DNA from: Stieleria maiorica
Lineage (GTDB): Bacteria; Planctomycetota; Planctomycetia; Pirellulales; Pirellulaceae
Assembly (NCBI RefSeq): GCF_008035925.1
Contig: NZ_CP036264.1
Span: forward strand, 6,109,641 to 6,173,640
DNA: 64,000 bases
Direction of reading: 5' to 3'
Under the pieces are notes generated by a model. It had not been told where the DNA came from. It searched no databases and worked only from the letters and a program-made list of their open reading frames with translations. The first letter of the stretch is position 1; the number at the start of each line of letters is the position of its first letter. A program made the position numbers and the translations under genes. Below, in pieces: positions 4,289 to 20,162 of this stretch.

Positions 4289-7200
4289 TTAATGCGTCGA
4301 TTGCGCCCGATCCAGCGGGATGGTCGCGACGAGGACGTTGGCGCGATAGTTCTCGATCTGCAGCACCGGACGTCTGTGCTGGTCCCAGACATCGATGTTG
4401 AACGTCGCATATTTGTCGGTCGATTCGAGCGGCGTGATGCGGGCGGTGACCTGCTGGCCGACGACGGGGGGCGAGAACGTCCGCAATCGTCGAATCGAAT
4501 GTGGCAAGGCGATCGACGTCCGGTCGATCGTCCATTCATGGACCCCCGCCGAAAACACGCAGGTGTCGATCAACACACAGGGCAGCAAGACCGAATCGCC
4601 GCTTTCGGCCGATAGAAACTCCGCCGGGTCGGCGATCCTGATTTTCGCCCACGATTCCTGCCGGGAATAGTAGAACTGTTCCAACTGGCGATAGATCGGG
4701 CCGTGATACACCGACAATTTGTGATCCAAGTAATGGACCGGGACATAGGGCACATCGGGAAATTCAACCGTGTCGATCGCAGCGCCATCGGGCTGGTCGG
4801 ATCGGATGACACATTCGGCATGCACGCGGTCCTTGCGAAGCACTTGGCCTTTGCGGTTTTTGAAATCGCTGAGCATGGAACATCGGATCTGGTCGCCCGA
4901 TCGCTCGGCGCGGACCCGAATCTCCTGCGGTTGATCGGTAAAGAAACGCATCGATTCGACAATGCGAAAGTTCTCGATCGTTGTCACCGCCAGCCCGTTG
5001 ACTGCCAGCCCACCGGTCAGCAGGCTGGCCGTCTCGGCACAGGCTTCCGCGGCAGCGACGAAGGGCAAGATCGGTCGGCCGCGCAGCAGGTGCTGGGATA
5101 AGAAGTTGTCGTTGACCGGATCGACGTCGCGCGCGGTCGTGATGCCGTGGCCGTTTGCACCATCCAGGTCCTGGACGCGATCGATCATCGGATAGGGACT
5201 TAGGGAAGAGACGTAATGGTCGGTGTAGTAGCGTTTGTAGCGTTCCCAATCGGTGACCAAGACCTCGCCTTCGGGACAGCCGCGCTGCAGTTCGTCGATG
5301 AAGTGCGCGACGCCTTCATCGACGGGCATGTACTTGGCGTCGACGAGTGTCTTGGCGAGTCGCGACTCGGGGCGGACGGCCATCCCGACTTCGTCCCACG
5401 ACGGCCAGTCAAAGGCAACCGCATGAACCTCGGGGCGAGTCTTGCGAAACCAACTGACGAGCTTGCACAGCAGTTCGTTGGCCAAGCAGTAATCGGTTTG
5501 GCCGACACCGCCGAAGCGCCCCGAGATGGATGCAAACGCGGCGAAGACCTTCAAGTCGTCTTGTCGGGTTAATTCCATCAGCGAGACGGCACCGTCGACT
5601 TTTGATGCGATCGTACGCTCGACCGACGCGAGTTTCTTCTTGGCGAAACTGCTCGCCTTTTCATAACCCGCACCGTGGATGATGCCGTCGATGCGGCCGT
5701 CGGTCTGTCGGATTCGGTCCAACAAGCGTGCCAGTGCCCGGTGGTCGCTGACGTCGCATGCGTGGTAGGTGACATCCAAACCCGATTTGGCAAAGGCACG
5801 CAGGTTTTCGTCGATTTCCAAGGCCTTTTCCACACGCGACCAGGCATCGATCGGGACCTCGCCCGCCTGGAGGGCTTTGCGAACGACTTCGGCACGGAGT
5901 TGCTTTCGCTGATCGGAACTCAAGTTTCGCCAACCGTCTTCGATTTCCGGCAGGGGACTCGATCCGATCAGGTGCAGTTTGACGCCGAATTGCTCGCCGA
6001 TCGCTTTGGCAATTTTGGCGGTGACCCCGCGGGCGCCGCCGGTGATGATCCAAACCTCACCGAAGTCAGGGTTGACGCTGGGGAGCTGATCGGCCGGTTG
6101 ATGGAGGGGCGCGACGACGTGACGTTTCCCGCCACGATAGGAGACTTCCGCTGTTCGTCCGGCCGACGATGCGGCTTCGTCGATCAATCGAGCCGCGATA
6201 AAATGCGGATCAGCATCCTGGTCAAAATCGACGACGCGGGCGCGGAACGATGTTTGTGCGGCGAACCCAAGTTCGATCAACAAACCCTTGACCAGTCCGG
6301 TCGCAAATCCACCCTCGGGGGAGATCAGGGAATCATCAAAGCCCAGCAACCCGCCCAGGCGGACGCCGCCGACGATTCTGCCTTCACCGACGAGCCCGTT
6401 TTCAGCGAGCAGCGTCATCCAGCGTTGGCAGAGTTGATACGGCACCAACAGGCCGCTCTGACGGCGTCGTTGCCAATCGTCCACCGAGGCGCCCAAGGCG
6501 GCGTCTTTGTCCCACGCGGTCAACAAGAAGACATTGGTCGGCACACCGGTTCGGCAAAAGTCGTCCAGAAAGGAAGTGGCGGCGTCGACATCGTCCAACC
6601 GCCGCAGATGAAGACAACGCACGCCAGCACGTTGCAGCGATTCGGCAAACGCGTCGGCGGCGGCGTTGTCGCCCAACAGCAAAACACCACCTTGCAGCGT
6701 CGCAGCGACGTCGGCTTGTGGTGCAGGCGGCGTTTGGATGCATCGCAGGACGAATCGGTCGCAGACCTTCCCGGCACCAACATTCGCCGCTCGCCCGCCG
6801 AACGCGTGCGAACGTTGTGAGAATTCTTGCCAGGTGATCACTCGGTCGCTTGCCCGCGCGGGGGCGTTCTCCGTTGCTCTCGTTGCGGTGACGCGAGGTC
6901 GGGTTTGCGGGGCCGGCTGGAACCCGATCAATGTCTCCAGGTCGAGTTCGAAAAACTGGTTCGCGTCCGCCGAGGGTTCATGATTGCCCGGCGTCGTCCA
7001 AGCCCGTCCCGATCGCACGTCAAAGAGAACGCTGACTTGGTTGTCGACACGGCGGATGGTGTTCATGGTCGCAAAACGGACTTCCCTGCCGCGGCCTTCG
7101 TCGTATTGATCCCTCATCCATCGTTGCAGCATTGCGGTTGACGGATCCTGGTCGTCTTTCAGCCGCCACAATGACTCAAGCCGTTGTTGGCGCAGGAGCG

Positions 7201-10200
7201 AGTGCCGCGGAGTTTTAGCGACCGCGGGCAGCAACTGGGCATGATTGCTGACCAGATGACGGTCATGAATCCGCTTGGATTGAAACGTTCCGCAATCGTA
7301 TTCGACATAGGCCGGTTCGGTACCAATGGCGTCGGAGATGCAGATGCCCCAGCCGCCGGTGGTCCGTTCGCGGCGCAGCAGACTAACGGCGTCGTCGACC
7401 GACTTGCAGGATTCCAGGACGCGACGGATGACGATCGAGTGGAGTAGTCCGTCGGCCGTTTCGGCGCGGCGGGGACGGTCCAACAGCATCGAGCTGGTGA
7501 CGACCACTCCGGCCGCGTTAACGCCATTGATCCCCAAAACATGACCGGCGGCGGAAAACAGCAAGTGCGGAAACCCAGCGGTCGGTCGCCGGATTTGAAC
7601 GCAGCGTCGCATCGTGTCACGAAGAAACAATCCCAGCGGCATGTCTTCGTTGGCCGCGTGCAGCCACTGTGTCTCTGTCGGTCGGGCGGCGGGATGCGAT
7701 GTGGATGATGGCCGGCCGGCGAGTACTTGCGTGCAACCGGCACCGATTTCTGGATAGGCGTACAGATTGTGTTCCAGCAACGCTTCGACGGGGACACCCG
7801 CCCCGTCGGCCATCCCACGCACTTCCTGCAACGCCGAGTCGTCGACCAGCGTGTCCAGCATCGATTTCGCCCGTGACAATTCGGGCAGGGTTCGACCGAA
7901 CTTGCCGGCGGCGATTTCCTTGTAACGATCCAGCATCCGATGAATCGCTGATGTCATGGATTGACCGTGCGCGGCGCCCATCTGGCGGGGTGAACCTTCC
8001 AGGAACAACAGCGGAAGTCCCGCCTCGGCATTCGCCGCCGATTCTTGGACGTTGATGCTGGAGCCCGGACGCTGGCGCGAGCCGGCTGATGTCGTTTGCA
8101 GATCAGTCGTTTGGCGCGAGCCTACGGGCGTGTCGGGAGTCGGCTCCGCTTGCTCGATGCCACTGGTGCTGCCCGGACGCTGGCGCGAACCGGCTGATGT
8201 GGTTTGCAGATCAGCCGTTTGGCGCGAGCCTACGGGCGTGTCGGGAGTCGGCTCCGCTTGCTCGATGCCACTGGTGCTGCCCGGACGCTGGCGCGAACCG
8301 GCTGATGTGGTTTGCAGATCAGCCGTTTGGCGCGAGCCTACGGGCGTGTCGGGAGTCGGCTCCGCTTGCTCGATGCCACTGGTGCTGCCCGGACGCTGGC
8401 GCGAACCGGCTGATGTGGTTTGCAGATCAGCCGTTTGGCGCGAGCCTACGGGCGTGTCGGGAGTCGGCTCCGCTTGCTGGCCGCCACTGGTGCTGCCCGG
8501 ACGCTGGCGCGAGCCGGCTGATGTGGTTTGCAGATCAGCCGTTTGGCGCGAGCCTACGGGCATGTCGGGAGTCGGCTCCGCTTGCTCGATGTCACTGGTG
8601 CTGCCCGGACGCTGGCGCGAACCGGCTGATGTCGTTTGCAAATCAGCCGTTTGGCGCGAGCCTACGGGCGTCGCTGTATCCGATACGGTCAGCCTCAACC
8701 GCGTTTCCATGTCGTCCGATTGACCGATCGGGACACCGGCGGCGCGCAATGCGGCATCCAGCCGGGCCAGGGATTCGTCGTGGTGTCGCTTCTTATTGTC
8801 CGTTGCGATCCACAACAATTCATCACCAACGATCTGCTCGTGCAACCGAGTCAGGACGGGGCTAGGTCCAATTTCCACCAGCACATTGACGCCCTCGTCG
8901 ACCAGCCGTCGAATCTGATCGGTGTACAGCACCGGTTGCACCAGTTGCCGGACCAGGTTTTCACGGATCGAGTCGGGTTCAGCGACGTAGCGGTTGTCGA
9001 CACTGCTGAGCAACGGGGTGCGCGGCGGGGCGATTCCTAAACGGTCGAGTTGTTGTCGAAACGCCGTTTGGATCGGCGCCATCAGCGGCGTGTGATAGGG
9101 GCGGGGCACGTTCAGGATTCTGGCGTGGACCCCGGCGTCGACCATCCGCGATTTCAGATTCTCAATCGCGGTGCGGCTGCCGGCGATGACGGTTTGTCGG
9201 TCACTGTTGCAATTGGCGACAAAGGCTTCGCCCGGAGTAGCGTTGCAGTAGGTCTGCGCGCCGTGTCGATCGAGGTCGACCGCCAGCATCGCGCCATCGA
9301 TTTCCTTGGACTCGGTGATCAACCGACAACGATGGTACGTTGCCACAGCCGCGGTGGTGAAATCCCATGCGCCGGCTGCGACCAAGGCCGGAAACTCCCC
9401 ATAACTGTGGGCCGAGATCCGGTCTGGACGGATCCCCATCGCATCGACCACTTCCATCAAGATCGAATCGGCGACCAACAAGGAAAGTTGCGTGCGCCAG
9501 ACGTCTTGACCGAGAAGATCCGCTTGGTCGACGACTAGATCTCGGTAGCTGGGAAACTGCAGTGATTTCAGGATCGCATCGATTCGTTCAGCGGCCGCGG
9601 AGGCGACGGGATGCGTTTGGACCAATTCGGTCAGCATGGACGGGTACTGTGACCCTTGTCCGGGAAACAAAAACGCCACCTTCGGCCACCGCGATCGCTC
9701 GACGCAGTAAATGCCTTGGCTTTGGAACAGTGCCTTGCGTTTGGGATGCGCGTGTGATGAAACAAACAGTTCCGCTTTCGTGCGAAGCTCGTCGTCGGTG
9801 CGGTAGACGATCGCCAGTGAATGTCGTTGATCGCTGGGAGGGCCGATGTCGCGCGATGGGTGGATCGGGTCGATTGCCCCGCCCGCGGCAACCTGTGTCG
9901 CGATGTCGATCAGACCGGACGGTGAGTCGGCTTGGCAAATCCAGCTTCGATAAGCGTGATCGCGATCGACCGCAGGGCGAGCCGTTTGGTCGCGACCGGG
10001 TTGTGCGGTCGCCGCTGGGACGGGTTGCCCACGCTCGATCACGACATGAGACGCCATTCCCCTGGCGTGGCAATGGAGGGTGGAATAGACGCGGCCGGAG
10101 GGATCAACGACCGGCAGGTCCCGGCTTGTCGCGGGGAACTCACACCAGGATTGATTAGACACGCAATCGATCGGCAGTTCTGGTGGCCGACCGACCGGCG

Positions 10201-12862
10201 ATTGAAGGTGCGAGAGTGCCAACGACGATTTGACCAACGCGATCATTCCCGCCGCGCTGCCGGTGTGCCCGAGTTGTCCGGCGAGCGAACGCAGATGCAA
10301 CGGTTGCTCCCGCTCTGCCGCGTACGCTTGGGCGATCGCTTGGAATTCGTCACGGTCGTCGCCGGCAACGCCACCGGCCGACAACTCGACGGCCGAGATT
10401 TGATCGGCAGTCACGCCGGCTCCTGCGAGGGCCCGGCCGATGGCGATTCGTTGCGAGGTTTGTTGATCGTCGTGACGTGCGACACCGATTTCACGGATCA
10501 CCGACAGGATTTCGTCGCCGTCGGCTTTCGCGTCACGGAGTTTTTTCAGCAGCACGACCGCGACTCCTTCGGCCGGGGCCATGCCGTCTGAATTCTGATC
10601 CAACGATCGGACACGACCCGACGGACTCAACCGCCCGGACAAGCGGAGACATTCAAACGCGTGGGGGCCGAGGTCGCGTTGGGCTCCGGCGGCGATGACC
10701 ATCTTGCAGTCACCACGCAGCAGGAATCCACGCGCCGTGTTGACCGCCATGATGGAGGAGTTGTCGCTGCTATCCAAAGCGAACGCACCGCCCATCAGGT
10801 CATAGGTCTTGGTGATCCGCGAGGCCAGTGAGCTGTTGCTGAAGCCGCCCGTTTCGTCCAACAAGGCCGGCATTCGTTCGAGCAGCACCTCGGCGAATCG
10901 CCGAGAGGTCCGGGCGATCTCTGCCGCGGGGATGCCTTTCTCTCGCAAGACCGTTTCGATGACTTCACGCAGCACCGGCAATCGCAGCCCGACCAGGAGC
11001 TGGGAACTGGCTTCGCCGCCGACGAGATTGCCGACGATGACCGCGGTGTGCTCGCGGTCCAGCTTGGACTCGTATCCGGATGCCTGGAGCGCCTCGGCGA
11101 CCGTGTCCAGGATCATGAACTGGAGCGGATCGGCGTTGGCGACTTGTTTCGGCGGAACGCGATGCCGTCGCCAATCGTATTGGTAATCGCGGATAAACCC
11201 GCCGACCCAATGTTTGGCGTCGTCCCCATGATCCAGCGTGACATCCCAGCGGTCGGCCGGGACGGGGATCTTGGGATCTCGACCCGATGACATCAGGTCC
11301 CAAAACTGATCGATCGTCCGTGCTCCGGGCACCAGCAGTGCGGCACCGACCACGGCAATCGATCGGTCCTCGGGCGCCGTGTCGCGGCGAGATCGTAAAC
11401 GGATGGACGTGTCCGGCAAATATTCCTCCAACACGACATGCACATTCAAGCCGCCGATTCCGAACGCGTTGACGCCGGCCCGCCGTGGTCCGTCCGGCGG
11501 CGGATCCGGCCAGGGGATCGCGGTGGTCGGCAATTGAAAGGGCGCGGCCGCCCAATCCACGTTGGGGCTCGGCCGGCGCAGATTGATCAGCGGCGGGATC
11601 ATGCGGTGCTGCATCGCCAGCACCGTTTTGACCAGCCCGGCCAGTCCGGCGGCTTCCAGCGTGTGGCCGATGTTGGCTTTGACGCTGCCGAGGGGAATCT
11701 TGCGATCCGGCGGTCGCCCGAACGATTCGTTGAAGGCCTCGGCCAAGCTATTGATCTCCGTCGAATCACCGACCGGCGTCGACGTCGCGTGGGCTTCGAC
11801 ATACTGAACCGAGCTCGGCGTCACGTCGGCCGAATAGGCGCGGCGGACGGCAGCGATTTGACCTTCACGTCGCGGCGCCCACAGGCTTTTCCCTTTGCCG
11901 TCGGAGGAAACGCCGATGCCGCGGATCACCGCGCGGATCGGATCCTTGTCCGCCAGGGCGCGCTCGAGTGTTTTCACAACCGCGACGACGTAGCCTTCTG
12001 CGGCGACCAGCCCGTCGGCGTCGGCATCAAAGGGACGTGAACCGGTGGCACTGACGGTTTGCGCCTGCGAAAACAGAATCAAAGCGTCCAGCTTGCAATA
12101 GGACAGGCCGCCGATCACGGCCAAGTCGATGTCGCCCGTTTGCAGCGCGTGGGCGCCGGCGGCCAACGCGACCAGCGAAGAACTGCACGCGGCGTTGATC
12201 GACAGACAAGGGCCGTCCAGCCCGAAGGCTTTGGAGATCAGCCGCGCCGCTTCGGAGCTTTCCAGCAACGGCCCGCCGCCGGGATTCCGCTTCGGTAGAT
12301 CACGACGCACCCGAGCGGTCGTCTCGGCGACCAACGCTGCTTGCTCACGAGGAGCCAGCCTGGAAACGTGGTCCGTTTGACGAAGACAATCCATCGCCTG
12401 GGCAGCCATGACGCCGAGCGTCAATTCGCCGATCAAGTTGGAACCGCGCTGATGGCCGACGAACACACCGCCTCGTGTCGACTCGGTAGCGTGCGGATCC
12501 AGTCCGGCATCGCGAATCGCTTGACCGGCGACCTGGCACAAGTCCAAATGCGAGTGATCGGCGTTTTCGATGTCGTGATCGGTCAGACGAAACGGTTCGA
12601 TGGGTGCCGTGCGGTCGCCGACAATCCCGCCGATCTTGGAATAGGTCTTTCCGAATTGTCCCGGTTCGGGATCGTAATACCGCCGCTGGTCCAGTCGCTC
12701 GGCGGGAAGTTCCGCGATCGCGCTGCGGCCTTCGATCATCAGCGACCAGTATTCGTCCAAATCGCTCGCGCCGGGCAAACGGCAGGCCATCCCGATCACG
12801 GCCAAGGGCGTGTCAGCGGATCGGTTTTCCGAGGGTGGATGGTTGGGGGCGGAATTCATCAT
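4289..12862 (-). CDS. PKS-A: KS / KS-like / AT / repeat linker / C45-AAT acyltransferase / KR / DH megasynthase
   Basis: 2857-residue multidomain synthase. KS about 20-445 with the full triad Cys226 (NAACSSS), His358 (EAHATST), His400 (NIGH). KS-like about 475-930: the Cys position is Asp700 (DSSDNSS) and the HATGT His is lost, so it resembles a chain-length factor. AT about 1065-1360 with Ser1153 (AHSYGE) and PYH. Then six tandem 36-residue repeats (1388-1603) where PUFA-type synthases carry ACPs; I see no ACP motif anywhere. Residues about 1615-1960 match the acyl-CoA:6-aminopenicillanate acyltransferase/C45 Ntn family, with the GCT motif at Cys1710. KR Rossmann motif ITGGARG near 2272, followed by ASISGRFGG...Y. 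DH hot-dog domain about 2560-2857 (FLSQHLLRGRPILPF). It needs the ACPs of PKS-B. Last gene of the operon, 68 bp after the FabL-like gene. Confidence 0.88.
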   Translation of the reverse strand: MMNSAPNHPPSENRSADTPLAVIGMACRLPGASDLDEYWSLMIEGRSAIAELPAERLDQRRYYDPEPGQFGKTYSKIGGIVGDRTAPIEPFRLTDHDIENADHSHLDLCQVAGQAIRDAGLDPHATESTRGGVFVGHQRGSNLIGELTLGVMAAQAMDCLRQTDHVSRLAPREQAALVAETTARVRRDLPKRNPGGGPLLESSEAARLISKAFGLDGPCLSINAACSSSLVALAAGAHALQTGDIDLAVIGGLSYCKLDALILFSQAQTVSATGSRPFDADADGLVAAEGYVVAVVKTLERALADKDPIRAVIRGIGVSSDGKGKSLWAPRREGQIAAVRRAYSADVTPSSVQYVEAHATSTPVGDSTEINSLAEAFNESFGRPPDRKIPLGSVKANIGHTLEAAGLAGLVKTVLAMQHRMIPPLINLRRPSPNVDWAAAPFQLPTTAIPWPDPPPDGPRRAGVNAFGIGGLNVHVVLEEYLPDTSIRLRSRRDTAPEDRSIAVVGAALLVPGARTIDQFWDLMSSGRDPKIPVPADRWDVTLDHGDDAKHWVGGFIRDYQYDWRRHRVPPKQVANADPLQFMILDTVAEALQASGYESKLDREHTAVIVGNLVGGEASSQLLVGLRLPVLREVIETVLREKGIPAAEIARTSRRFAEVLLERMPALLDETGGFSNSSLASRITKTYDLMGGAFALDSSDNSSIMAVNTARGFLLRGDCKMVIAAGAQRDLGPHAFECLRLSGRLSPSGRVRSLDQNSDGMAPAEGVAVVLLKKLRDAKADGDEILSVIREIGVARHDDQQTSQRIAIGRALAGAGVTADQISAVELSAGGVAGDDRDEFQAIAQAYAAEREQPLHLRSLAGQLGHTGSAAGMIALVKSSLALSHLQSPVGRPPELPIDCVSNQSWCEFPATSRDLPVVDPSGRVYSTLHCHARGMASHVVIERGQPVPAATAQPGRDQTARPAVDRDHAYRSWICQADSPSGLIDIATQVAAGGAIDPIHPSRDIGPPSDQRHSLAIVYRTDDELRTKAELFVSSHAHPKRKALFQSQGIYCVERSRWPKVAFLFPGQGSQYPSMLTELVQTHPVASAAAERIDAILKSLQFPSYRDLVVDQADLLGQDVWRTQLSLLVADSILMEVVDAMGIRPDRISAHSYGEFPALVAAGAWDFTTAAVATYHRCRLITESKEIDGAMLAVDLDRHGAQTYCNATPGEAFVANCNSDRQTVIAGSRTAIENLKSRMVDAGVHARILNVPRPYHTPLMAPIQTAFRQQLDRLGIAPPRTPLLSSVDNRYVAEPDSIRENLVRQLVQPVLYTDQIRRLVDEGVNVLVEIGPSPVLTRLHEQIVGDELLWIATDNKKRHHDESLARLDAALRAAGVPIGQSDDMETRLRLTVSDTATPVGSRQTADLQTTSAGSRQRPGSTSDIEQAEPTPDMPVGSRQTADLQTTSAGSRQRPGSTSGGQQAEPTPDTPVGSRQTADLQTTSAGSRQRPGSTSGIEQAEPTPDTPVGSRQTADLQTTSAGSRQRPGSTSGIEQAEPTPDTPVGSRQTADLQTTSAGSRQRPGSTSGIEQAEPTPDTPVGSRQTTDLQTTSAGSRQRPGSSINVQESAANAEAGLPLLFLEGSPRQMGAAHGQSMTSAIHRMLDRYKEIAAGKFGRTLPELSRAKSMLDTLVDDSALQEVRGMADGAGVPVEALLEHNLYAYPEIGAGCTQVLAGRPSSTSHPAARPTETQWLHAANEDMPLGLFLRDTMRRCVQIRRPTAGFPHLLFSAAGHVLGINGVNAAGVVVTSSMLLDRPRRAETADGLLHSIVIRRVLESCKSVDDAVSLLRRERTTGGWGICISDAIGTEPAYVEYDCGTFQSKRIHDRHLVSNHAQLLPAVAKTPRHSLLRQQRLESLWRLKDDQDPSTAMLQRWMRDQYDEGRGREVRFATMNTIRRVDNQVSVLFDVRSGRAWTTPGNHEPSADANQFFELDLETLIGFQPAPQTRPRVTATRATENAPARASDRVITWQEFSQRSHAFGGRAANVGAGKVCDRFVLRCIQTPPAPQADVAATLQGGVLLLGDNAAADAFAESLQRAGVRCLHLRRLDDVDAATSFLDDFCRTGVPTNVFLLTAWDKDAALGASVDDWQRRRQSGLLVPYQLCQRWMTLLAENGLVGEGRIVGGVRLGGLLGFDDSLISPEGGFATGLVKGLLIELGFAAQTSFRARVVDFDQDADPHFIAARLIDEAASSAGRTAEVSYRGGKRHVVAPLHQPADQLPSVNPDFGEVWIITGGARGVTAKIAKAIGEQFGVKLHLIGSSPLPEIEDGWRNLSSDQRKQLRAEVVRKALQAGEVPIDAWSRVEKALEIDENLRAFAKSGLDVTYHACDVSDHRALARLLDRIRQTDGRIDGIIHGAGYEKASSFAKKKLASVERTIASKVDGAVSLMELTRQDDLKVFAAFASISGRFGGVGQTDYCLANELLCKLVSWFRKTRPEVHAVAFDWPSWDEVGMAVRPESRLAKTLVDAKYMPVDEGVAHFIDELQRGCPEGEVLVTDWERYKRYYTDHYVSSLSPYPMIDRVQDLDGANGHGITTARDVDPVNDNFLSQHLLRGRPILPFVAAAEACAETASLLTGGLAVNGLAVTTIENFRIVESMRFFTDQPQEIRVRAERSGDQIRCSMLSDFKNRKGQVLRKDRVHAECVIRSDQPDGAAIDTVEFPDVPYVPVHYLDHKLSVYHGPIYRQLEQFYYSRQESWAKIRIADPAEFLSAESGDSVLLPCVLIDTCVFSAGVHEWTIDRTSIALPHSIRRLRTFSPPVVGQQVTARITPLESTDKYATFNIDVWDQHRRPVLQIENYRANVLVATIPLDRAQSTH
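8055..8702 (-). repeat. Six tandem 108 bp in-frame repeats inside PKS-A
   Basis: Exact 108 bp period (landmark CTGGTGCTGCCCGG at 8163, 8271, 8379, 8487 and 8595, with a diverged first copy at 8055). Each unit encodes 36 residues rich in Ser, Arg, Gln, Pro and Thr (for example PVGSRQTADLQTTSAGSR). Copies are nearly identical in all codon positions, which points to recent expansion or gene conversion. Each unit holds the inverted pair CGGCTGAT/ATCAGCCG. The encoded stretch looks like a flexible linker between AT and the C45 domain. It has no Ser-bearing ACP motif. Confidence 0.9.
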
Positions 12863-12930
12863 TCGGTTCTGCTGCGACAGGCACGCGGCGGTGCGTGTTT
12901 GGCTACTCGTGCGCAGCTACACGTGTGCGG

Positions 12931-13695
12931 CTACACGTGTGCAGCGGCTCCCCCATCGACGGTGAGGGTCGTCGCTTGAATCAGATCACTGATCGGGCTG
13001 GACAAAAACGCGACGGCGTTGGCGACGTCGGACGCTTCCAATTGCCGTTGTCCCATCATCGTCTTGGCCGTTCGGGCGGCAAACATCTTTTCCGCATCCG
13101 GAATGCGACGCGTCGAATCGGTTTCGACCAGACCGGATTTGACCACGTTGACGTTGATGCGACGATCCCCCAGTTCCAAGGCCAAGTGTCGCGTGATGCT
13201 TTCCAAGGCCGCCTTTGAGCCGCCGATCAAGCCGTACATCGGCAGTGCCAGGTGTGACCCGTGGCTGGAAATCGCGATCACTTTGCCACGGTCGCGCGCG
13301 TTTTCCAGCAGCGGCACGGCGGCTTTGACCAGATGGACCAGCGCGAGCACGTTGGTGTTCATCGCCGCGGCGAAGTGTCTGGGGTTGGAGGCCAGCAGCG
13401 GGCGGAATCCGCCGGTCGCGGCGTTGCTGACCAGGATGTCCAGTTGCCCGATTTCTTGCTCGATGAATTCGAACATCGACTGCACATCGTCTTCTTCGCT
13501 GACGTCGGCGCGGATGATCCAACAGCGTCGCCCCAGCGACTGAATCTCTTTGGCGGTCGCCAACGCTTCATTCTGGGACGTGACATAGTTGACGATCACG
13601 TCACACCCCGCTTCGGCCAACGTGATCGCCACCGCGCGACCGATCCCCCGCGAGCTTCCGGTGACGAGGGCGACTTTCTCTTTCAGATCAATCAT
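12931..13695 (-). CDS. FabL-type enoyl-ACP reductase (SDR family)
   Basis: 254-residue short-chain dehydrogenase. N-terminal cofactor motif TGSSRGIGRA, then NAA and a catalytic Tyr and Lys spaced Y-x6-K (PMYGLIGGSK). The x6 spacing is typical of enoyl-ACP reductases rather than the Y-x3-K of ketoreductases, and the flanking SKAALESITRHLALEL strongly recalls Bacillus FabL. It would reduce the enoyl intermediate, supplying in trans the ER activity that neither PKS protein carries. The ATG overlaps the phosphopantetheinyl transferase stop (ATGA), so it is translationally coupled within the PKS operon. Alternative: another SDR that reduces a keto product, for example a 3-ketosphinganine-type reductase. 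Confidence 0.75.
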   Translation of the reverse strand: MIDLKEKVALVTGSSRGIGRAVAITLAEAGCDVIVNYVTSQNEALATAKEIQSLGRRCWIIRADVSEEDDVQSMFEFIEQEIGQLDILVSNAATGGFRPLLASNPRHFAAAMNTNVLALVHLVKAAVPLLENARDRGKVIAISSHGSHLALPMYGLIGGSKAALESITRHLALELGDRRINVNVVKSGLVETDSTRRIPDAEKMFAARTAKTMMGQRQLEASDVANAVAFLSSPISDLIQATTLTVDGGAAAHV

Positions 13696-14564
13696 GATGG
13701 ATTCTTAGTGTGGTGCTCGGTGTTCTCAACCTTGTAGCAGACATTGGCGGCTGCCCGTTTCACACTGGCTCCCTTCTCCCCCGGCCTTGCGGGGGAGAAG
13801 GGCTGGAGATGAGAGGGCCAGCACTGTGATTTGTGTGGACGCTGAGGCCCGACGGACACGCTGCCAACGAGCGAGCTCGTTCGTGCGATCGCGATGATCG
13901 CGTCATCGTAAACCCTCAATCGCACGTCCGCCGTGCGTCGGGTTTCGTAGTCAACGGTGCAGCCCTCGGCAGTGACTCGGGCAATCTGAACGTGGCGGGG
14001 GCGAAACGGTTCGCCGTCATTGCATGCTTTGAACGCTGCCTCCTTCGCCGCCCATCCCGCGGCGATCGTCCATCGGCGGTTCTCCAATCGGTGACGTTCC
14101 GCGGTCGAGAACCAGGCTTGCGCGAAACTGTCGGGCAAGGCGGTGCGATCGATCGCATCGACGCCGATTCGACACCCCTCGGGGGGATCGAGGTCATGAT
14201 GGTTGTGGCCTACCGCGGCAACCGTGATCGACGCACAGTGGGCGAGCGACAGATCGATCGGTTGCCGGACGTCATTTCGATAGACGACCGGACGGCGACC
14301 GCGTCGCGCCGATGCGCGTGAAAGGATCTGCCACTTCAGCGGCGAGTCATCGGCATCGGAGAACATCTCAACGAGCAGTTGTTTCGCGCACCACCGTCCG
14401 CCGATCCAGTCCCGGCGTCGATTCGGCGCCCGAAAGCAATCCAGTTCGTCGATCTCGGGCGGTGTCAGCCACGACCGGAGCGTCATCGGCCAAGGGGGAG
14501 TGGACGCGGTCGTGCCCCGTCGCGCGGTCACCGTCATCCACGATTCGCTGCAAGAGATCCTCAT
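13692..14564 (-). CDS. Sfp-type 4'-phosphopantetheinyl transferase
   Basis: 290 residues from the ATG at 14564, which overlaps the PKS-B stop by ATGA; the open frame runs further upstream but only inside PKS-B. Family signatures are IGVDAIDR (magnesium and CoA binding) and WAAKEAAFK. It transfers phosphopantetheine from CoA to the Ser of ACPs, here most plausibly Ser1110 and Ser1750 of PKS-B. Position between PKS-B and the enoyl reductase supports a dedicated activator. The C-terminal 45 or so residues are low-complexity and run through a hairpin repeat (13771-13802), so the tail was probably added by a repeat insertion. Confidence 0.85.
   Translation of the reverse strand: MRISCSESWMTVTARRGTTASTPPWPMTLRSWLTPPEIDELDCFRAPNRRRDWIGGRWCAKQLLVEMFSDADDSPLKWQILSRASARRGRRPVVYRNDVRQPIDLSLAHCASITVAAVGHNHHDLDPPEGCRIGVDAIDRTALPDSFAQAWFSTAERHRLENRRWTIAAGWAAKEAAFKACNDGEPFRPRHVQIARVTAEGCTVDYETRRTADVRLRVYDDAIIAIARTSSLVGSVSVGPQRPHKSQCWPSHLQPFSPARPGEKGASVKRAAANVCYKVENTEHHTKNPS
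13771..13802. repeat. Hairpin repeat within the 3' end of the PPTase gene
   Basis: Perfect 12 bp inverted repeat CCCTTCTCCCCC/GGGGGAGAAGGG with an 8 bp loop, followed by GCTGGAGATGAGAGGG. It is translated as SPARPGEKG in the PPTase tail. Confidence 0.75.
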
Positions 14565-17500
14565 ACGCCGATTCCTATTGCATCGGCGATGTAGTCGAAG
14601 ACGTCCTGCAAGGTCGGGAAATCGTCCAGCGTTAATGATTCGTCCGGCGTGATCTGAAAGTGCTGTCCGAGTTCGCCGAACAGTTGTGCCTTCTTGATCG
14701 AATCGATCCCCAGGTCGGCTTCCATGTCGGCGTCCATCTCGACAAACTCCGGCGGGTACCCGGTCTGTTCGACGATGAAATTGACCAGGTACTCCTGCAA
14801 GTCCGTTGTCGTCCAATCCTGTGGCCCGTTCGATTCAGATGGTGATGGAACGCTTGCCTCGATCGGTTGAGATTCGTTTGATATCGGCCGGATCATGCCA
14901 GCGTCCGCGATTCCAGCTGGATTTGCGTCCGATGGCATGGGGCTTTTGCCAGACAACACCGATTGCCACTGGGCGATCGGAACGCTCTCGGCTTGGACGG
15001 CGTGCAGGTCTTCGGCCAGGGCATCGATCGTCGTGCGGATTTGTTCTTCGCTGTGCCGTGCGGTGATCATGAAACGCAGTCGTGCCGCGTCGTTTTCCAC
15101 CGCCGGATAAACGATCGGTTGAATGTCGATGCCGCGGTCAAGCAGTCGACGAGACAGCAGCAACGCAGTGTGCGAGTTGCCGACCATGATCGGGACGACC
15201 GGCGTGTCGCGGGCCGGACCGGTATCGAGCCCACGCTGTCTGGCCAGTTCCAGTAGCAGCCGGGCGTTATTTTGCAGCTTGGCAACCCGCTGGGGTTGTT
15301 GTTGCAGCAGTCGCAGCGACGCCAGGGCGGCGCCGGCACTGCCCGGTGACAGGGCGACCGTGTAAATGAATCCCGGCGTGCTGTACTTCAGGTATTCGAT
15401 CAGCTCGCGGCTGCCGGCGACAAATCCTCCACCGCTGCCGAACGCTTTGCTGAGCGTTCCGACCCACAAGTCGATTTCGCCGGAATCGAGACCAAAGAAC
15501 TCGGGGCTGCCGCGGCCGGTGGTTCCCATCGTGCCGATGGCGTGGGCGTCATCGACCAACAGAAACGCGTCGTGTCGCCGTTTGATGTCCAGAAATGCCG
15601 GCAGGTCCGGGTGATCGCCGTCCATGCTGTAGGCACCTTCGATGGCGATCAACGTGCGCCCGTACTTGTGCCGGATTTTTTGCAGTTGGCGATCCAAAGC
15701 CACGCTGTCGTTGTGCGGAAAACTCAGTCGCTGTGCCCCCGACAGCTCGGCGCCTTGGATGATGCAGTTGTGGGCGAGCGAGTCGTGAATGACCAGATCA
15801 CCGGGGCCGAACAGATGCCCGATGATCGATTCGTTGGCGGCGTAGCCCGACGAGAAGACCAACGTCGCTTCGACGCCCAAGAACCTGGCCAATTCGTCTT
15901 CGAGTTCGCGGTGCAGCGGTTTGCCCGCGATCAGACGGCTGGCGGAAACACTGGTGCCGTAGCGATCGATCGCCTCTTTGGCGGCAGCCGAGACGATCGG
16001 GTCACCGGACATGCCCAGGTAGTTCGAACTGCAGAACGTGACGACCTGTTTGCCGTCGACGCGCGTGGTGTCTTGGGTGACGCTTTCGTGTTCGGCGAAA
16101 TACGGAATCGACAACCCCGCAAAATCGAGCAAGTCTTTCGTGCGGTTGATCCGCTTGGCGTCGGGGATCAGATCGAGGTTTCGATCCGGGCGATCTGCGG
16201 TCGTCGTGATTGAATCGCCCGCGCGGCGGTCGTGGGGGGATGGGGTGTTGTGATGGAGCGGTTGGTTGGGTTCCGGCACGTCGGGAAACCGCAGGCTAGC
16301 GCCATGCGGCTGATCGGGTGCCCGCACGCTGGCGGCATGCGGCTGATCGGGTGCCCGCAGGCTGGCGTCATGCGGCTGATCGGGTGCCCGCAGGCTGGCG
16401 CCATGCGGCTGATCGGGGGCATGCAGGCTGGCGCCGTGCGGCTGATCGGGGGCTGGTGTTCGGCGGCTGGGTTCGACCGGCGGAGCGGATGTAGCGTCCG
16501 ATGCGGCAAGGTAATCGAAGATATGTTGCAGGGTGGGGAAATCGTCCAGCGTGAGCGTTTCGTCGGGCGTGATCGCGAAGTGTTCGCCGAGCTCGCCGAA
16601 CATCTGCGCTTTCTTGATCGAATCGATTCCCAGGTCTGCTTCCAGGTCAGCGTCCATCTCGACGAACTCCGGCGGATAACCGGTTTGTTCGACGACAAAC
16701 CGGTTCAGGAACTCTTTCAGTTGGTCGTCGGACAAACCGGTCGAGACGGAGTCAGTCGGGGCGGCATGGAGGTGGTTGCTGCGAGTCGGGGCGGGCGTTT
16801 GTGTCGGCGCAGGCGTGTTTGTCGGGAGGGTCAGGCTCTCTCGGGCGTCGCTGGCCGCAGCGGGAACTTGCGACGGCGATTGGGCAACCTGCGACGGCAA
16901 TTCCGTCGCGGAGCGTGACTGACGCATCGCCTTGTCCCGCATCGCTTCCTTTCGCCGTCGCGTGGCGTCGACGACCTGGATGCCGTCGACGAGGCTGGAA
17001 TCGTAGGAGGCCTTGGCGGTCACGGGAGCGGTCACTGGGGCCTTGGGTTTGCTGGGAGCATGCACTTTTGCATCTCGCTGGAGAAGAATGTGATAGGCGG
17101 TTTGACGTTCGCAATTGTGGACGGCGGTGACAAGGCGTCCGCTGCGGTCGGCCGCTTCCAGCGGCTGGGGCTGGGGGGCGACATCAAACAACGGGTTGGA
17201 TTCGATCAACGGCAACGGGCGGGTCAGCCCGAACGTGGCCGTTGTTTTCAAGTGCTCGAGCTCGAGCGTCGACTTGATCAACGCGGCGACCGCCGACGCG
17301 GCGCCCAGGTGACCAGTTTGGGTCATCAGGCAATCGAGGGAAATGGGACGTTGCCGGGTGCGCTGGGCGTAGGCATGGTAGATCCCATCGAGTTCTTCGG
17401 CGGTCCGCCGCTGGCAGGCGACCGAGGTGGTTTCGATCCGAGCGACGTCGCCCGCGGCGAGCGGCCAGTCCTGGCGGGCGGTCCGCCGGAGCGCATCGTC

Positions 17501-19948
17501 GACGGCGCGCTGGGAGGCTTCGGATTGGCTGTCGGCGGTGGCGACCCCCACACCTTGGATGATACCCCAAATTTTGCGTTTTTGTTGTTTCGCGTCGGCC
17601 AGCCGCATCAACAGCAACGCCCCACAGCCCTCCGCCGGGACGATCCCGCCGGCCGCGGCGTCCAACGGCGATCTTGGCGTCCCCTGGGTGAGCAGACCGG
17701 CCAACCCCATCCGCTCCAGAAACGTCGCGCTCAGGTCTTCTTGGCCGCCAACGCAAACCATCATGTCGCAGGCAGCGGTGGCCAATTGGTCGACGCAGCA
17801 CATCAAGGCGGCCGCCGAGGAGCAGTTGCCGGCGTCAACCGCGACACCCCCGCCCATCAGGTCGAACGATTTGGTGATCCGCGACGCCAGGCTGCTGCTG
17901 GTGAAGCTGCCGGTTTCATCCAACAACGCGGGCATCGCCTGGATCAACGCCTGGGCGTACTGTCGGCTAACCTCATCGCACTCTCGGGGGTCACAGCCGA
18001 GCCGATCGAGCAGCCCAACAAGACGCCGTTGAAATTCGGGCAATCGCAATCCCATCAGCAATTGGGTTGCAAACTCACCGCCGAACGGCGAACCGACCAC
18101 CACGCCGATGCGGCTGGTCGACTCGCGGTCCAAACCGGCTTCGCGGAACGCCTGGTCGACCGCATCCAGAATCATGAACTGCAACGGGTTGGCGTTGGCG
18201 ATCTGCTTGGGCGGAATCTTGTGCGTCCGCCAATCGTATTGAAATCCCTTGACCACCCCCGCAAGATTGTTGACGCAGTGCCAAGGTCTCGGCCCGGAGG
18301 GATCCAGGTAGATGTCGGGATTGGTGCGATGCGCGGGAATCGGCCCTTTCGGATCGTCTCCGCTGATCAGCAACTGGGCGAATGCGTCGACGTTCAAGGC
18401 GCCCGGCAAAACCGTCCCCCGTCCGATCACGGCGACGGCGTCGGCAGGGGAACGGTCGGTCAATTGAACTTGGCCGACACGTTGCCGATGGCCCTTGGTT
18501 TGTACCACGTCGACGCCGGCATGCACTGCCGTTGGGTCGGTGCCGGCGGGGAACTCTTCCAGCACCACGTGGACATTCAATCCGCCGATGCCGAACGCAT
18601 TGACGGCCGCGCGGCGCGGCGATCCGCCGGCAGGCTCGGGCCAGTGCTCGGCTTGCAAGGGGACGTAGAACGGCAGCGAGTCCCAGTCGATCGACGTGTT
18701 CAAGCGATTGACATTGACGGCCGGGGCGATGGTCTGGTGACGCATGCAGAGCACGGCTTTGACCAGCCCGGCCAGCCCCGCGGTCTCCAGCGTGTGGCCG
18801 ATATTCGCTTTGACGCTGCCGATCGGAATCCGACGGCCGGGCGGCAGTTTTAATGCTTCGGCCAGCGCCACAACTTCGGTGGCGTCACCGAGTTGGGTGG
18901 AGGTGGCGTGCGCTTCGATGTATTGCAGGTTCGCTGACTTTAGATCTTCGCCATAGGCACGACCGATGGCCACCATTTGTCCTTGCTTTCGCGGTGCCCA
19001 CAGGCTCTTGCCCTTGCCGTCAGAGGAGACCCCGATGCCACGAATTACCCCGTGAATCCTGTCTCCGTCGCGGAGTGCTTGCTCGAGTGTTTTGAGAATC
19101 ACGACGACGTATCCTTCACCGACGACCAAGCCATCGGCATCGTCGTCGAAGGGCCGCGACATCACACTGCTGAGCGACTGGGCCTGGGAAAACATCACCA
19201 GGGTTTCGAAGTGACAGACCGACGCTCCGGCGACCATCGCCATGTCGATGCGGCCTTGCTGCAATGCCAACACCGCTTGGTGCAGGGCGCTCAATGACGA
19301 CGCACAGGCGGAATTGAACGTCATCGCCGGACCGCCCATGGCGAACGTCTGGGCCAGCATCGCGGAGGCCACGTGCGGCCCCAAAGCGGGGCGTCCCTGT
19401 TGGTCTCGATGCGGCATTTCCGATCGCACCTGGGAGACGAGTTCGTCGATCACCCCTTGATGATCAACGTCCAACTCTCGAAAGCCCTGCACCTCGCCTA
19501 GCAGCCGCGCCGATTGTGCGATGCAGGTTCCGTAGGCCAAGTCGCCGGCTAAGCCGCTGCTGCGGGAGTGTCCCAGGTAGACCCCGCCGGATCGCCGCCG
19601 GGCGGGATACAGCTCGACTCCGGCATCGTCCAATGCCTCCGCGGCCACATCGCACAAGTTGCGGTAGGCCGCTTCGGGGCACTCGTGAACCGCGGCGGGA
19701 AGCGAATCAAAGTGCCGCCCCCGGGCGCGTTGATTGACCAGGCAACCGATGTCGCAATAGGAACGGTTGGGGATCCCCTGGCGCGGGTCAAAGTACAGGG
19801 ACCGGTCGAAGCGTGATTCCGGCAGCAGCCCGGCCGTCGCGACGCCATCGCGAATGATCTTCCAATAACCCTGCAAGTCATCGGCCCCGGGCAGGCGGCA
19901 GGCCATGCCGACCAGCGCGATCTGCTTGTTTGGCGACGAGGTCTGCAT
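14561..19948 (-). CDS. PKS-B: KS / KS-like / ACP / alpha-oxoamine synthase / ACP
   Basis: 1795-residue synthase. KS about 1-435 with Cys215 (NSACASS), His347 (EAHATST), His385 (NIGH). KS-like about 465-930: the Cys position reads Asn708 with a shifted Cys709 (DAGNCSS) and the HATGT His is missing. ACP1 about 1070-1145 (LGIDSIKKAQ, Ser1110), then Pro/His-rich repeats (1165-1220). Residues about 1285-1690 form a complete fold-type I PLP alpha-oxoamine synthase (AONS/KBL/SPT family): TFCSSNYLGMSG, FSSGYAAN, LVDDAHAIG and Schiff-base Lys1501 in TLSKAFGSGGG. ACP2 about 1715-1795 (Ser1750). There is no AT, so loading must use PKS-A. The AOS domain should join an ACP-bound acyl chain to an amino acid with loss of CO2, releasing an amino ketone. 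First gene of the operon. Confidence 0.88.
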   Translation of the reverse strand: MQTSSPNKQIALVGMACRLPGADDLQGYWKIIRDGVATAGLLPESRFDRSLYFDPRQGIPNRSYCDIGCLVNQRARGRHFDSLPAAVHECPEAAYRNLCDVAAEALDDAGVELYPARRRSGGVYLGHSRSSGLAGDLAYGTCIAQSARLLGEVQGFRELDVDHQGVIDELVSQVRSEMPHRDQQGRPALGPHVASAMLAQTFAMGGPAMTFNSACASSLSALHQAVLALQQGRIDMAMVAGASVCHFETLVMFSQAQSLSSVMSRPFDDDADGLVVGEGYVVVILKTLEQALRDGDRIHGVIRGIGVSSDGKGKSLWAPRKQGQMVAIGRAYGEDLKSANLQYIEAHATSTQLGDATEVVALAEALKLPPGRRIPIGSVKANIGHTLETAGLAGLVKAVLCMRHQTIAPAVNVNRLNTSIDWDSLPFYVPLQAEHWPEPAGGSPRRAAVNAFGIGGLNVHVVLEEFPAGTDPTAVHAGVDVVQTKGHRQRVGQVQLTDRSPADAVAVIGRGTVLPGALNVDAFAQLLISGDDPKGPIPAHRTNPDIYLDPSGPRPWHCVNNLAGVVKGFQYDWRTHKIPPKQIANANPLQFMILDAVDQAFREAGLDRESTSRIGVVVGSPFGGEFATQLLMGLRLPEFQRRLVGLLDRLGCDPRECDEVSRQYAQALIQAMPALLDETGSFTSSSLASRITKSFDLMGGGVAVDAGNCSSAAALMCCVDQLATAACDMMVCVGGQEDLSATFLERMGLAGLLTQGTPRSPLDAAAGGIVPAEGCGALLLMRLADAKQQKRKIWGIIQGVGVATADSQSEASQRAVDDALRRTARQDWPLAAGDVARIETTSVACQRRTAEELDGIYHAYAQRTRQRPISLDCLMTQTGHLGAASAVAALIKSTLELEHLKTTATFGLTRPLPLIESNPLFDVAPQPQPLEAADRSGRLVTAVHNCERQTAYHILLQRDAKVHAPSKPKAPVTAPVTAKASYDSSLVDGIQVVDATRRRKEAMRDKAMRQSRSATELPSQVAQSPSQVPAAASDARESLTLPTNTPAPTQTPAPTRSNHLHAAPTDSVSTGLSDDQLKEFLNRFVVEQTGYPPEFVEMDADLEADLGIDSIKKAQMFGELGEHFAITPDETLTLDDFPTLQHIFDYLAASDATSAPPVEPSRRTPAPDQPHGASLHAPDQPHGASLRAPDQPHDASLRAPDQPHAASVRAPDQPHGASLRFPDVPEPNQPLHHNTPSPHDRRAGDSITTTADRPDRNLDLIPDAKRINRTKDLLDFAGLSIPYFAEHESVTQDTTRVDGKQVVTFCSSNYLGMSGDPIVSAAAKEAIDRYGTSVSASRLIAGKPLHRELEDELARFLGVEATLVFSSGYAANESIIGHLFGPGDLVIHDSLAHNCIIQGAELSGAQRLSFPHNDSVALDRQLQKIRHKYGRTLIAIEGAYSMDGDHPDLPAFLDIKRRHDAFLLVDDAHAIGTMGTTGRGSPEFFGLDSGEIDLWVGTLSKAFGSGGGFVAGSRELIEYLKYSTPGFIYTVALSPGSAGAALASLRLLQQQPQRVAKLQNNARLLLELARQRGLDTGPARDTPVVPIMVGNSHTALLLSRRLLDRGIDIQPIVYPAVENDAARLRFMITARHSEEQIRTTIDALAEDLHAVQAESVPIAQWQSVLSGKSPMPSDANPAGIADAGMIRPISNESQPIEASVPSPSESNGPQDWTTTDLQEYLVNFIVEQTGYPPEFVEMDADMEADLGIDSIKKAQLFGELGQHFQITPDESLTLDDFPTLQDVFDYIADAIGIGV
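16291..16455 (-). repeat. Five tandem 33 bp in-frame repeats inside PKS-B
   Basis: 33 bp period (landmarks at 16291, 16324, 16357, 16390 and 16423), encoding an 11-residue unit APDQPHGASLR. It links ACP1 to the alpha-oxoamine synthase domain. Near-identity at the nucleotide level implies recent expansion. It shares the CGGCTGAT core with the 108 bp repeats of PKS-A. Confidence 0.9.
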
Positions 19949-20093: not shown

Positions 20094-20162
20094 GGTGTTC
20101 AGGCTTTAGCCGCCTCTTGTCGCTGCTTCGCAGCGAGGGGAATCGCCTCATGGCTAAACACC
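20094..20162. repeat. Palindromic repeat family A, copy 2 (uninterrupted)
   Basis: Ends GGTGTT and AACACC, arms CAGGCTTTAGCCGCC and GGCGATTCCCC (opposite strand), central hairpin CGCTGCTTCGCAGCG. It is the uninterrupted form of the copies at 2922-3118 and 51806-51981. It occupies the divergent intergenic region between PKS-B and the exporter, and the first ATG of the exporter (20150) falls inside it. Confidence 0.8.

Follow-up and report, generated by a model that had tools for sequence, protein, structure and literature searches.

Alpha-oxoamine synthase embedded in a PUFA-synthase-like polyketide synthase of Stieleria maiorica, a candidate route to long-chain amino lipids

A polyketide route to sphinganines was published in 2025 for the SgaAB system of Pseudomonas: SgaA and SgaB make C24-C28 sphinganines, with SgaB condensing serine with acyl-CoA, and 6101 clusters are described as homologous to this polyketide synthase (PKS)-derived pathway (PMC12134224). 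In Pseudomonas fluorescens MYb115, an iterative type I PKS called monomodular (SgaA) is accompanied by an alpha-oxoamine synthase (AOS) that joins the chain to an amino acid (SgaB, a separate protein) and by a reductase gene (SgaC) (PMC12134224). Clusters of the rkpA/rkpG type are older, among them rkpABCDEFGHIJ of Sinorhizobium (PMC7902896); rkp and wcb clusters contain capsule genes (PMC3908369). Polyunsaturated fatty acid (PUFA) synthases (Pfa) and Pfa-like enzymes harbor a ketosynthase (KS) with a chain-length-factor partner, acyltransferase (AT), acyl carrier protein (ACP), ketoreductase (KR), and dehydratase (DH) domains (PMC3098273, PMC13291983). Zeamine synthases recruited aminotransferase domains, and the term 'oxoamine' is absent from the main text of the respective source (PMC13291983). 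For planctomycetes, Spt-like proteins were reported in 138 Planctomycetota metagenome-assembled genomes (MAGs) of the Black Sea (PMC11334938). The locus described here lies in a 64,000-nucleotide stretch of the Stieleria maiorica chromosome (denoted the window; 6.11-6.17 Mb of the 9.89 Mb single-contig genome) and encodes a two-subunit PKS with an embedded AOS domain.

Four genes on the minus strand constitute the operon, in the order PKS-B, a frame for a 4'-phosphopantetheinyl transferase (PPTase), a FabL-like short-chain dehydrogenase/reductase (SDR), and PKS-A (Table 1). The domain content suggests, with a probability of roughly 0.68, that both large proteins form an iterative megasynthase of the PUFA-synthase type, whose embedded AOS releases the finished chain as an alpha-amino ketone; the locus would thus probably yield long-chain amino lipids. 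Since no thioesterase is encoded, the chain has to exit via the AOS, via a C45 domain located in PKS-A, or via an unlinked enzyme. Off-loading by the AOS is the most economical reading, because an intact AOS and two ACPs reside on the same chain, the reductive cycle is complete, and a thioesterase is missing; tethering, evolutionary constraint, and the published SgaAB precedent led to this choice.

An original prediction, made without database searches, had proposed much of this layout. PKS-A and PKS-B are indeed open minus-strand frames of 2857 and 1795 aa, and the KS, KS-like, ACP, AOS, ACP order proposed for PKS-B is found in a single frame, where Pfam and NCBIfam detect the KS twice, both ACPs, and the AOS-family domain. 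The AOS is intact, with Lys1501 present in the motif TLSKAFG, and this Lys as well as the Asp, His, and Arg of the superfamily active site are retained in all six orthologues. KR and DH of PKS-A (Pfam/NCBIfam) together with the SDR, FabL-like by its best, though sub-cut-off, score and its YX6K motif, account for the predicted reductive cycle. No thioesterase family occurs among the Pfam matches of PKS-A, PKS-B, and the SDR, again in line with the prediction. Its domain list was incomplete: the C45 domain of PKS-A and the PPTase (PF01648) had been omitted. Amino-ketone release by the AOS is therefore backed by the intact domain, the ACPs, and the precedent, but the AOS is not the sole possible off-loader.

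The composition is that of a PUFA synthase (KS and Cys-less KS partner, AT, more than one ACP, KR, DH), here divided over two subunits and with the ACPs separated by the AOS. PfaA is the best NCBIfam match of PKS-B and the second-best of PKS-A, with scores below the subfamily cut-off (624 and 400 of 1010 bits for PKS-A and PKS-B, respectively). A PPTase gene is also present; the subunit split, the additional C45 and AOS domains, and an operon devoid of separate PfaB and PfaD genes set the locus apart. The Sga system resembles it in the coupling of a PKS to an AOS, as judged by domain order and with iteration presumed, and similarly composed plasmid loci of Pseudomonas and Paraburkholderia carry an AOS of the same wider clade. 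The Stieleria locus differs by its PUFA-type subunit pair, the KS-like domains, the AOS between two ACPs, the C45 domain, and the YX6K reductase. On Sinorhizobium pSymB, a large SDR-annotated gene, an AOS gene with the motif HNS, and an SDR gene are adjacent; the large gene we take to be the rkpA PKS, with the roles presumably those of RkpA, RkpG, and RkpH. In contrast to PKS-B, these are separate genes with capsule genes nearby, and the AOS gene comprises 1416 bases without an ACP-AOS-ACP fusion.

The system is real, conserved, and under selection. All six orthologous loci keep the order PKS-B, PPTase, SDR, PKS-A, and the catalytic motifs of KS1, AT, C45, KR, DH, ACP, AOS, and SDR are retained in each. 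The first KS of each subunit has an intact Cys-His-His triad, while the second lacks the Cys in both subunits of all six. Of the domains measured, the AOS is under the tightest constraint (mean dN/dS of 0.062 over 15 orthologue pairs), which argues against a chance architecture; the ACPs and the SDR (0.07 each) and the C45 domain (0.17) follow. The linkers are the least conserved stretches among the orthologues (0.46-0.67, the repeat linker between AT and C45 reaching about 0.67).

In the proposed sequence of events, the PPTase would arm both PKS-B ACPs and the AT of PKS-A would load malonyl units. Elongation would be performed by the intact KS domains, each with a Cys-less KS partner acting as chain-length factor, and KR, DH, and the FabL-like reductase, judged by their intact active sites, would reduce the chain mostly to a saturated acyl group. 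The AOS, tethered between the ACPs, would bind an amino acid as an aldimine, serine being the favored candidate, and take the acyl group from a neighboring ACP, with loss of CO2, to yield a long-chain amino ketone without free acyl-CoA. As a weaker and rather doubtful extension, the C45 domain, self-cleaved at Cys1710, might pass an ACP-bound acyl group on to an amine, in the simplest case the newly formed one, giving an N-acyl amino ketone resembling 3-ketoceramide. An MMPL protein encoded next to the operon could then move the lipid outward. It is conceivable, though on balance unlikely, that a single megasynthase of two subunits assembles an entire ceramide-like skeleton from ACP thioesters (acyl chains, the C-C bond by the AOS, the amide bond by C45), without an acyl-CoA pool or a separate ceramide synthase.

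The C45 domain occupies aa 1620-1970 of PKS-A, between AT and KR, and exceeds the cut-offs of NF040521 (116.4 bits; cut-off 85) and PF03417 (47.9 bits; cut-off 23.2). Its GAGCTQ motif is kept in the six orthologues, and an alignment of 23 sequences shows next to no variation at the Gly-Cys cleavage site; a synthase copy of genome G349 that has lost Gly-Cys was left out of it. A structure model from these 23 sequences (pLDDT 86, pTM 0.87), replacing an earlier poor one (pLDDT 63), shows an N-terminal nucleophile (Ntn) fold matching isopenicillin N acyltransferase best (2x1c/2x1d/2x1e; TM 0.72-0.74), followed by acid ceramidase (0.67) and NAAA. By sequence, the only solved chains matched are those of isopenicillin N acyltransferase (two distinct sequences, best E 7e-7). 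The domain thus shares fold and cleavage site with these enzymes, which are free-standing and act on CoA thioesters or amides, whereas C45 resides inside a synthase. All three relatives form or cleave amides.

C45 synthases also occur without an AOS. When 84,980 species genomes were scanned with a C45 alignment, using two short peptide patterns, 18 loci emerged: the titles of 16 name planctomycetes, and the other two read only 'bacterium' MAG. The scan is no complete census, since loci of G172, G478, and G486 that were known otherwise are unlisted. An AOS is present at the four Stieleria-like loci and at none of the other 14 (up to 10 kb on each side, less on short contigs). At 11 of these 14, a long synthase frame has C45 before KR and DH and is accompanied by an SDR matching the FabL-like one (39-75% identity); nine of these frames also show ACP matches upstream of C45, and the remaining two are truncated where their contig ends. 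The remaining three loci are short frames of 517-541 aa. AOS-free planctomycete synthases with an embedded C45 include L106, L108, L118, L124, L129, and L130. Within the phylum, 15 of 294 genomes gave a C45 match (E at most 1e-10; S. maiorica included). Ten of these have weaker matches only (E 6e-17 to 3e-11); the synthase check covered the four with long frames (G412, on the same contig as L117, and G478, G486, and G349), which are synthases of the same kind. The G349 synthase has lost the C45 nucleophile Cys (L111:12061-13143), while a short C45 protein encoded elsewhere in that genome retains it (L110:9329-10831). Trees and distribution suggest that the C45 synthase is the older enzyme in planctomycetes and that this genus later added an AOS to it. 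The AOS-free synthases of other planctomycetes imply that C45 may be the older off-loading domain. A quick KS tree separates active and Cys-less KS domains into distinct clades. Four SgaA-like planctomycete synthases stand apart in it (support 100), and KS1 of both subunits falls outside their clade, a comparison that left out SgaA of MYb115 itself. An origin of PKS-B by KS duplication within the genus found no support, as KS1 of A and of B are not sisters (separating branch 92, not starred).

In a more careful AOS tree of 52 rows, which includes a small reference set (two solved AOS) and some long branches, the PKS-B AOS rows form one clade (100/100) inside a 24-row planctomycete group (96/89). 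This group comprises ten rows of the size of fatty acyl-AMP ligase (FAAL)-ACP-AOS proteins, seven of PKS-fusion size, the six PKS-B rows, and one separate gene beside a PKS; its branching singles out no sister of the PKS-B AOS. It is nested in a 39-row clade of carrier- or PKS-linked AOS (100/99), also including AOS from Pseudomonas, Paraburkholderia, Sinorhizobium, Shinella, Planktothrix, and Streptomyces plasmids. The wider clade appears to include relatives of SgaB and RkpG. Its nearest neighbors are a planctomycete AOS that stands alone (L059), followed by the serine palmitoyltransferase (SPT) 3a2b clade, with ThAOS across a 99/93 branch. His-Asn-Ser or His-Asn-Cys is found in 51 of 52 carrier- or PKS-linked AOS rows (HSS in one), as opposed to His-Ala-Ser (HAS) in 12 of 13 others (HRS in one); six added plasmid sequences carry HNS (five) or HDS (one). 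This replacement could serve as a signature for carrier- and PKS-linked AOS.

In the architecture search proposed earlier, covering samples of 199 family and 392 phylum genomes, the exact PKS-B domain order was found only in this genus (beyond the phylum, the AOS search covered plasmids only). An AOS-domain match of any frame size was obtained in 184 of the 199 family genomes (E at most 1e-70) and, with the same query, in 112 of the 392 phylum genomes. Among the matches listed, an AOS in a PKS-B-sized frame (1771-1815 aa) occurs in six of 14 same-genus genomes, S. maiorica included, with 93-95% identity to the query in the other five; the C45 domain is present in the same six. Most remaining listed matches sit in frames of about 1100-1250 aa, and three such proteins examined (P0004 from S. 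maiorica, G032, and G364 from another family) are FAAL-ACP-AOS proteins. These likewise have a carrier-linked AOS of the same tree group, 54% identical to that of PKS-B in P0004 and 52-63% in listed frames of similar size; they differ in that loading is by a fatty acyl-AMP ligase and not by a PKS. The abundance of frames of this size across the family suggests a widespread AOS-derived lipid. The S. maiorica protein (1200 aa) is encoded at L009:7560-11162 (C1, about 3.43 Mb), and its neighboring genes gave no clue to the product.

Several observations weigh against the proposed scheme. The SDR resembles an enoyl reductase, so that the operon shows no dedicated ketosphinganine reductase: a YX3K motif is the expectation for such an enzyme, and no separate reductase of this type is found in the operon. 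The AOS falls below the cut-off of all 12 AOS or related families listed (bioF, KBL, SPT, and ALAS models among them), and its motif reads HNC in all six orthologues, in place of the HAS motif that was described as strictly conserved in the superfamily (PMC6148460). As C45 synthases occur with no AOS at any of the 14 loci, the job of C45 cannot depend on the amine delivered by the AOS, and C45 may be a plain chain-releasing hydrolase. The only link of the MMPL frame to the operon is its position, at five of six loci. It is unlikely that C45 is the true off-loader, by thioesterase activity or by transfer to a free amine (an amino acid or polyamine, for instance), with the AOS as a second exit to a minor or separate product. 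This would agree with the position of C45 ahead of KR and downstream of the ACP matches in the AOS-free synthases, with the near invariance of its Gly-Cys site (though lost in the G349 copy), and with a GH3 amide synthetase gene downstream of one AOS-free locus (L105); yet in the Stieleria-like synthase no domain measured is more constrained than the AOS, which is fused directly between both chain-holding ACPs, and a fatty acyl reductase lies near two AOS-free loci (L108, L111), so that C45 need not be the releaser there.

As the amino acid substrate of the AOS, serine is not established, given the sub-cut-off scores, SPT included (313 of 640, 288 of 500, and 217 of 670 bits), and the HNC motif; the score with the best model, bioF, is also below its cut-off (365 of 426 bits). 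It is quite possible, if somewhat short of an even chance, that glycine, alanine, cysteate, or another amino acid is used, giving an amino ketone, a deoxysphingoid, a capnine-like lipid, or a heterocycle precursor instead of a sphingoid base. Since the His is retained, HNC is regarded as the mark of a subclade and not as exclusion from the superfamily. HNS or HNC is moreover common to AOS beside type I PKSs in Pseudomonas and Paraburkholderia, and the published relative SgaB prefers serine (PMC12134224), a comparison made without the SgaB protein itself. That the lipid serves to anchor or carry a surface polysaccharide, as supposable for RkpA/RkpG-type clusters, instead of being a free membrane amino lipid, is quite improbable: PKS and AOS pairs adjoin capsule genes in Pseudomonas, Sinorhizobium, and Shinella and lie near a mannose-1-phosphate guanylyltransferase gene in Paraburkholderia, but no capsule or glycosyltransferase family was detected among ten frames scanned with Pfam between positions 2 and 28751 of the window (PPTase and MMPL included; eight with a match, two without). 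Inactivity of the AOS or of the whole locus, for which nothing beyond the altered HAS motif speaks, is very remote in view of the intact residues in six of six orthologues and the strong purifying selection. The stieleriacine pathway was considered and rejected, as its published candidate cluster consists of different, NAS-based genes (Mal15_37240-37430) and 'polyketide' is absent from the main text of that source (PMC7293339). AOS off-loading of an amino ketone remains the preferred reading, with serine as its leading but tentative co-substrate.

Table 1. Features of the Stieleria maiorica PKS/AOS locus (positions within the window).
Feature	Position	Strand	Basis or remark
PKS-A, 2857 aa: KS1, KS2 (Cys lost), AT, repeat linker, C45, psi-KR, KR, DH	4289..12862	-	
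PKS-A DH, H-G-P and Asp motifs	4292..5230	-	PF14765 over cut-off, PF21089 below
PKS-A C45-to-DH region: KR and upstream structural KR half (psi-KR)	5243..6895	-	psi-KR by position, no library match
PKS-A C45 Ntn acyltransferase/hydrolase domain	6953..8005	-	nucleophile Cys1710 (GAGCTQ)
Tandem repeat coding for the AT-C45 linker	8063..8671	-	108 bp, 5.6 copies, 96% match
PKS-A AT	8753..9697	-	Ser of AHSYG
PKS-A KS2, chain-length-factor-like	9983..11362	-	
PKS-A KS1	11402..12820	-	
FabL-like SDR	12931..13695	-	NCBIfam best score, motif YX6K
PPTase, open frame, start not settled	13692..14564	-	PF01648 42.5 bits, cut-off 25
PKS-B, 1795 aa: KS1, KS2 (Cys lost), ACP1, AOS, ACP2	14561..19948	-	open frame, Pfam, NCBIfam
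PKS-B ACP2	14573..14803	-	GIDS
PKS-B AOS domain	14984..16117	-	HNC replacing HAS
PKS-B Lys1501 codon	15446-15448	-	within TLSKAFG
Coding tandem repeat in linker	16289-16450		33 bp x 4.9
PKS-B ACP1	16499..16741	-	GIDS
PKS-B KS2, chain-length-factor-like	17009..18433	-	Asn, Ser, or Thr at Cys position; Cys lost in 6/6
PKS-B KS1	18539..19933	-	catalytic Cys and both His intact
MMPL/RND-type transporter frame, candidate product exporter	20117..22426	+	divergent from operon

Among 235 NCBIfam families, the SDR scores highest with FabL (267.9 of 328 bits, below the cut-off), and the Y-x6-K spacing, a mark of enoyl reductases, is kept in all six orthologues. A role as ketosphinganine reductase was lowered, the motif being YX6K and not YX3K. 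The PPTase was matched in the five other orthologous loci. The MMPL frame starts about 170 bases from PKS-B, the first gene of the operon, and the gap contains one promoter-like site facing PKS-B (0.1 expected by shuffling). It is seen in five of six loci, the window included; in G185 the contig stops before its position, and the G197 copy is divided between two overlapping frames (L071/L072, joined coordinates 9502-10122 and 9972-11837) by a frameshift or sequencing error.

AOS domains are linked to other PKS backbones as well, whose KS domains form a distinct clade, and an AOS also occurs as a separate gene adjoining a PKS. Single proteins of 2541-2632 aa with KS, AT, and KR and a C-terminal AOS are encoded in five other genomes of the phylum (L078:961-8718, L081, L082, L086, and L079); the Pfam order in L078 is KS-AT-DH-enoyl reductase (ER)-KR-ACP-AOS, like SgaA and SgaB fused. 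On a Streptomyces anthocyanicus plasmid, a KS-AT-ACP-AOS protein of 1607 aa and a divergent MMPL transporter gene (L134; 5296-10119 and 2710-5007) repeat the layout seen at PKS-B; kinship of the two transporters was rejected, as the match is not convincing (E 0.01). Planktothrix agardhii plasmid p3 harbors a fused KS-AT-DH-ER-KR-ACP-AOS frame adjoining glycosyltransferase genes (L132:2515-10113).

A polyketide route to sphingoid-like lipids, as originally proposed, is not new, since the SgaAB pathway has been published (PMC12134224) and rkpA/rkpG-type clusters are older. The idea has thereby gained a precedent. What looks new here is the PUFA-type two-subunit scaffold, the AOS between tandem ACPs, and the C45 domain. 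Among the open-licence papers listed, and judged by title or abstract, no description of a C45 domain inside a PKS was found, which is weak evidence; the same applies to the lack of open-licence literature linking an oxoamine synthase with a PKS in planctomycetes or with a fatty acyl-AMP ligase.

The locus would extend PKS-linked sphingolipid-type chemistry to a PUFA-synthase scaffold, in which, given the position of the AOS between tandem ACPs, acyl-ACP would be the natural donor. It also exposes a planctomycete synthase family with an embedded acyltransferase of ceramidase-like fold. As gene deletion mutants of Stieleria maiorica have been described (PMC10896814), the synthesis of sphingolipid-like lipids by this route is directly testable in planctomycetes.

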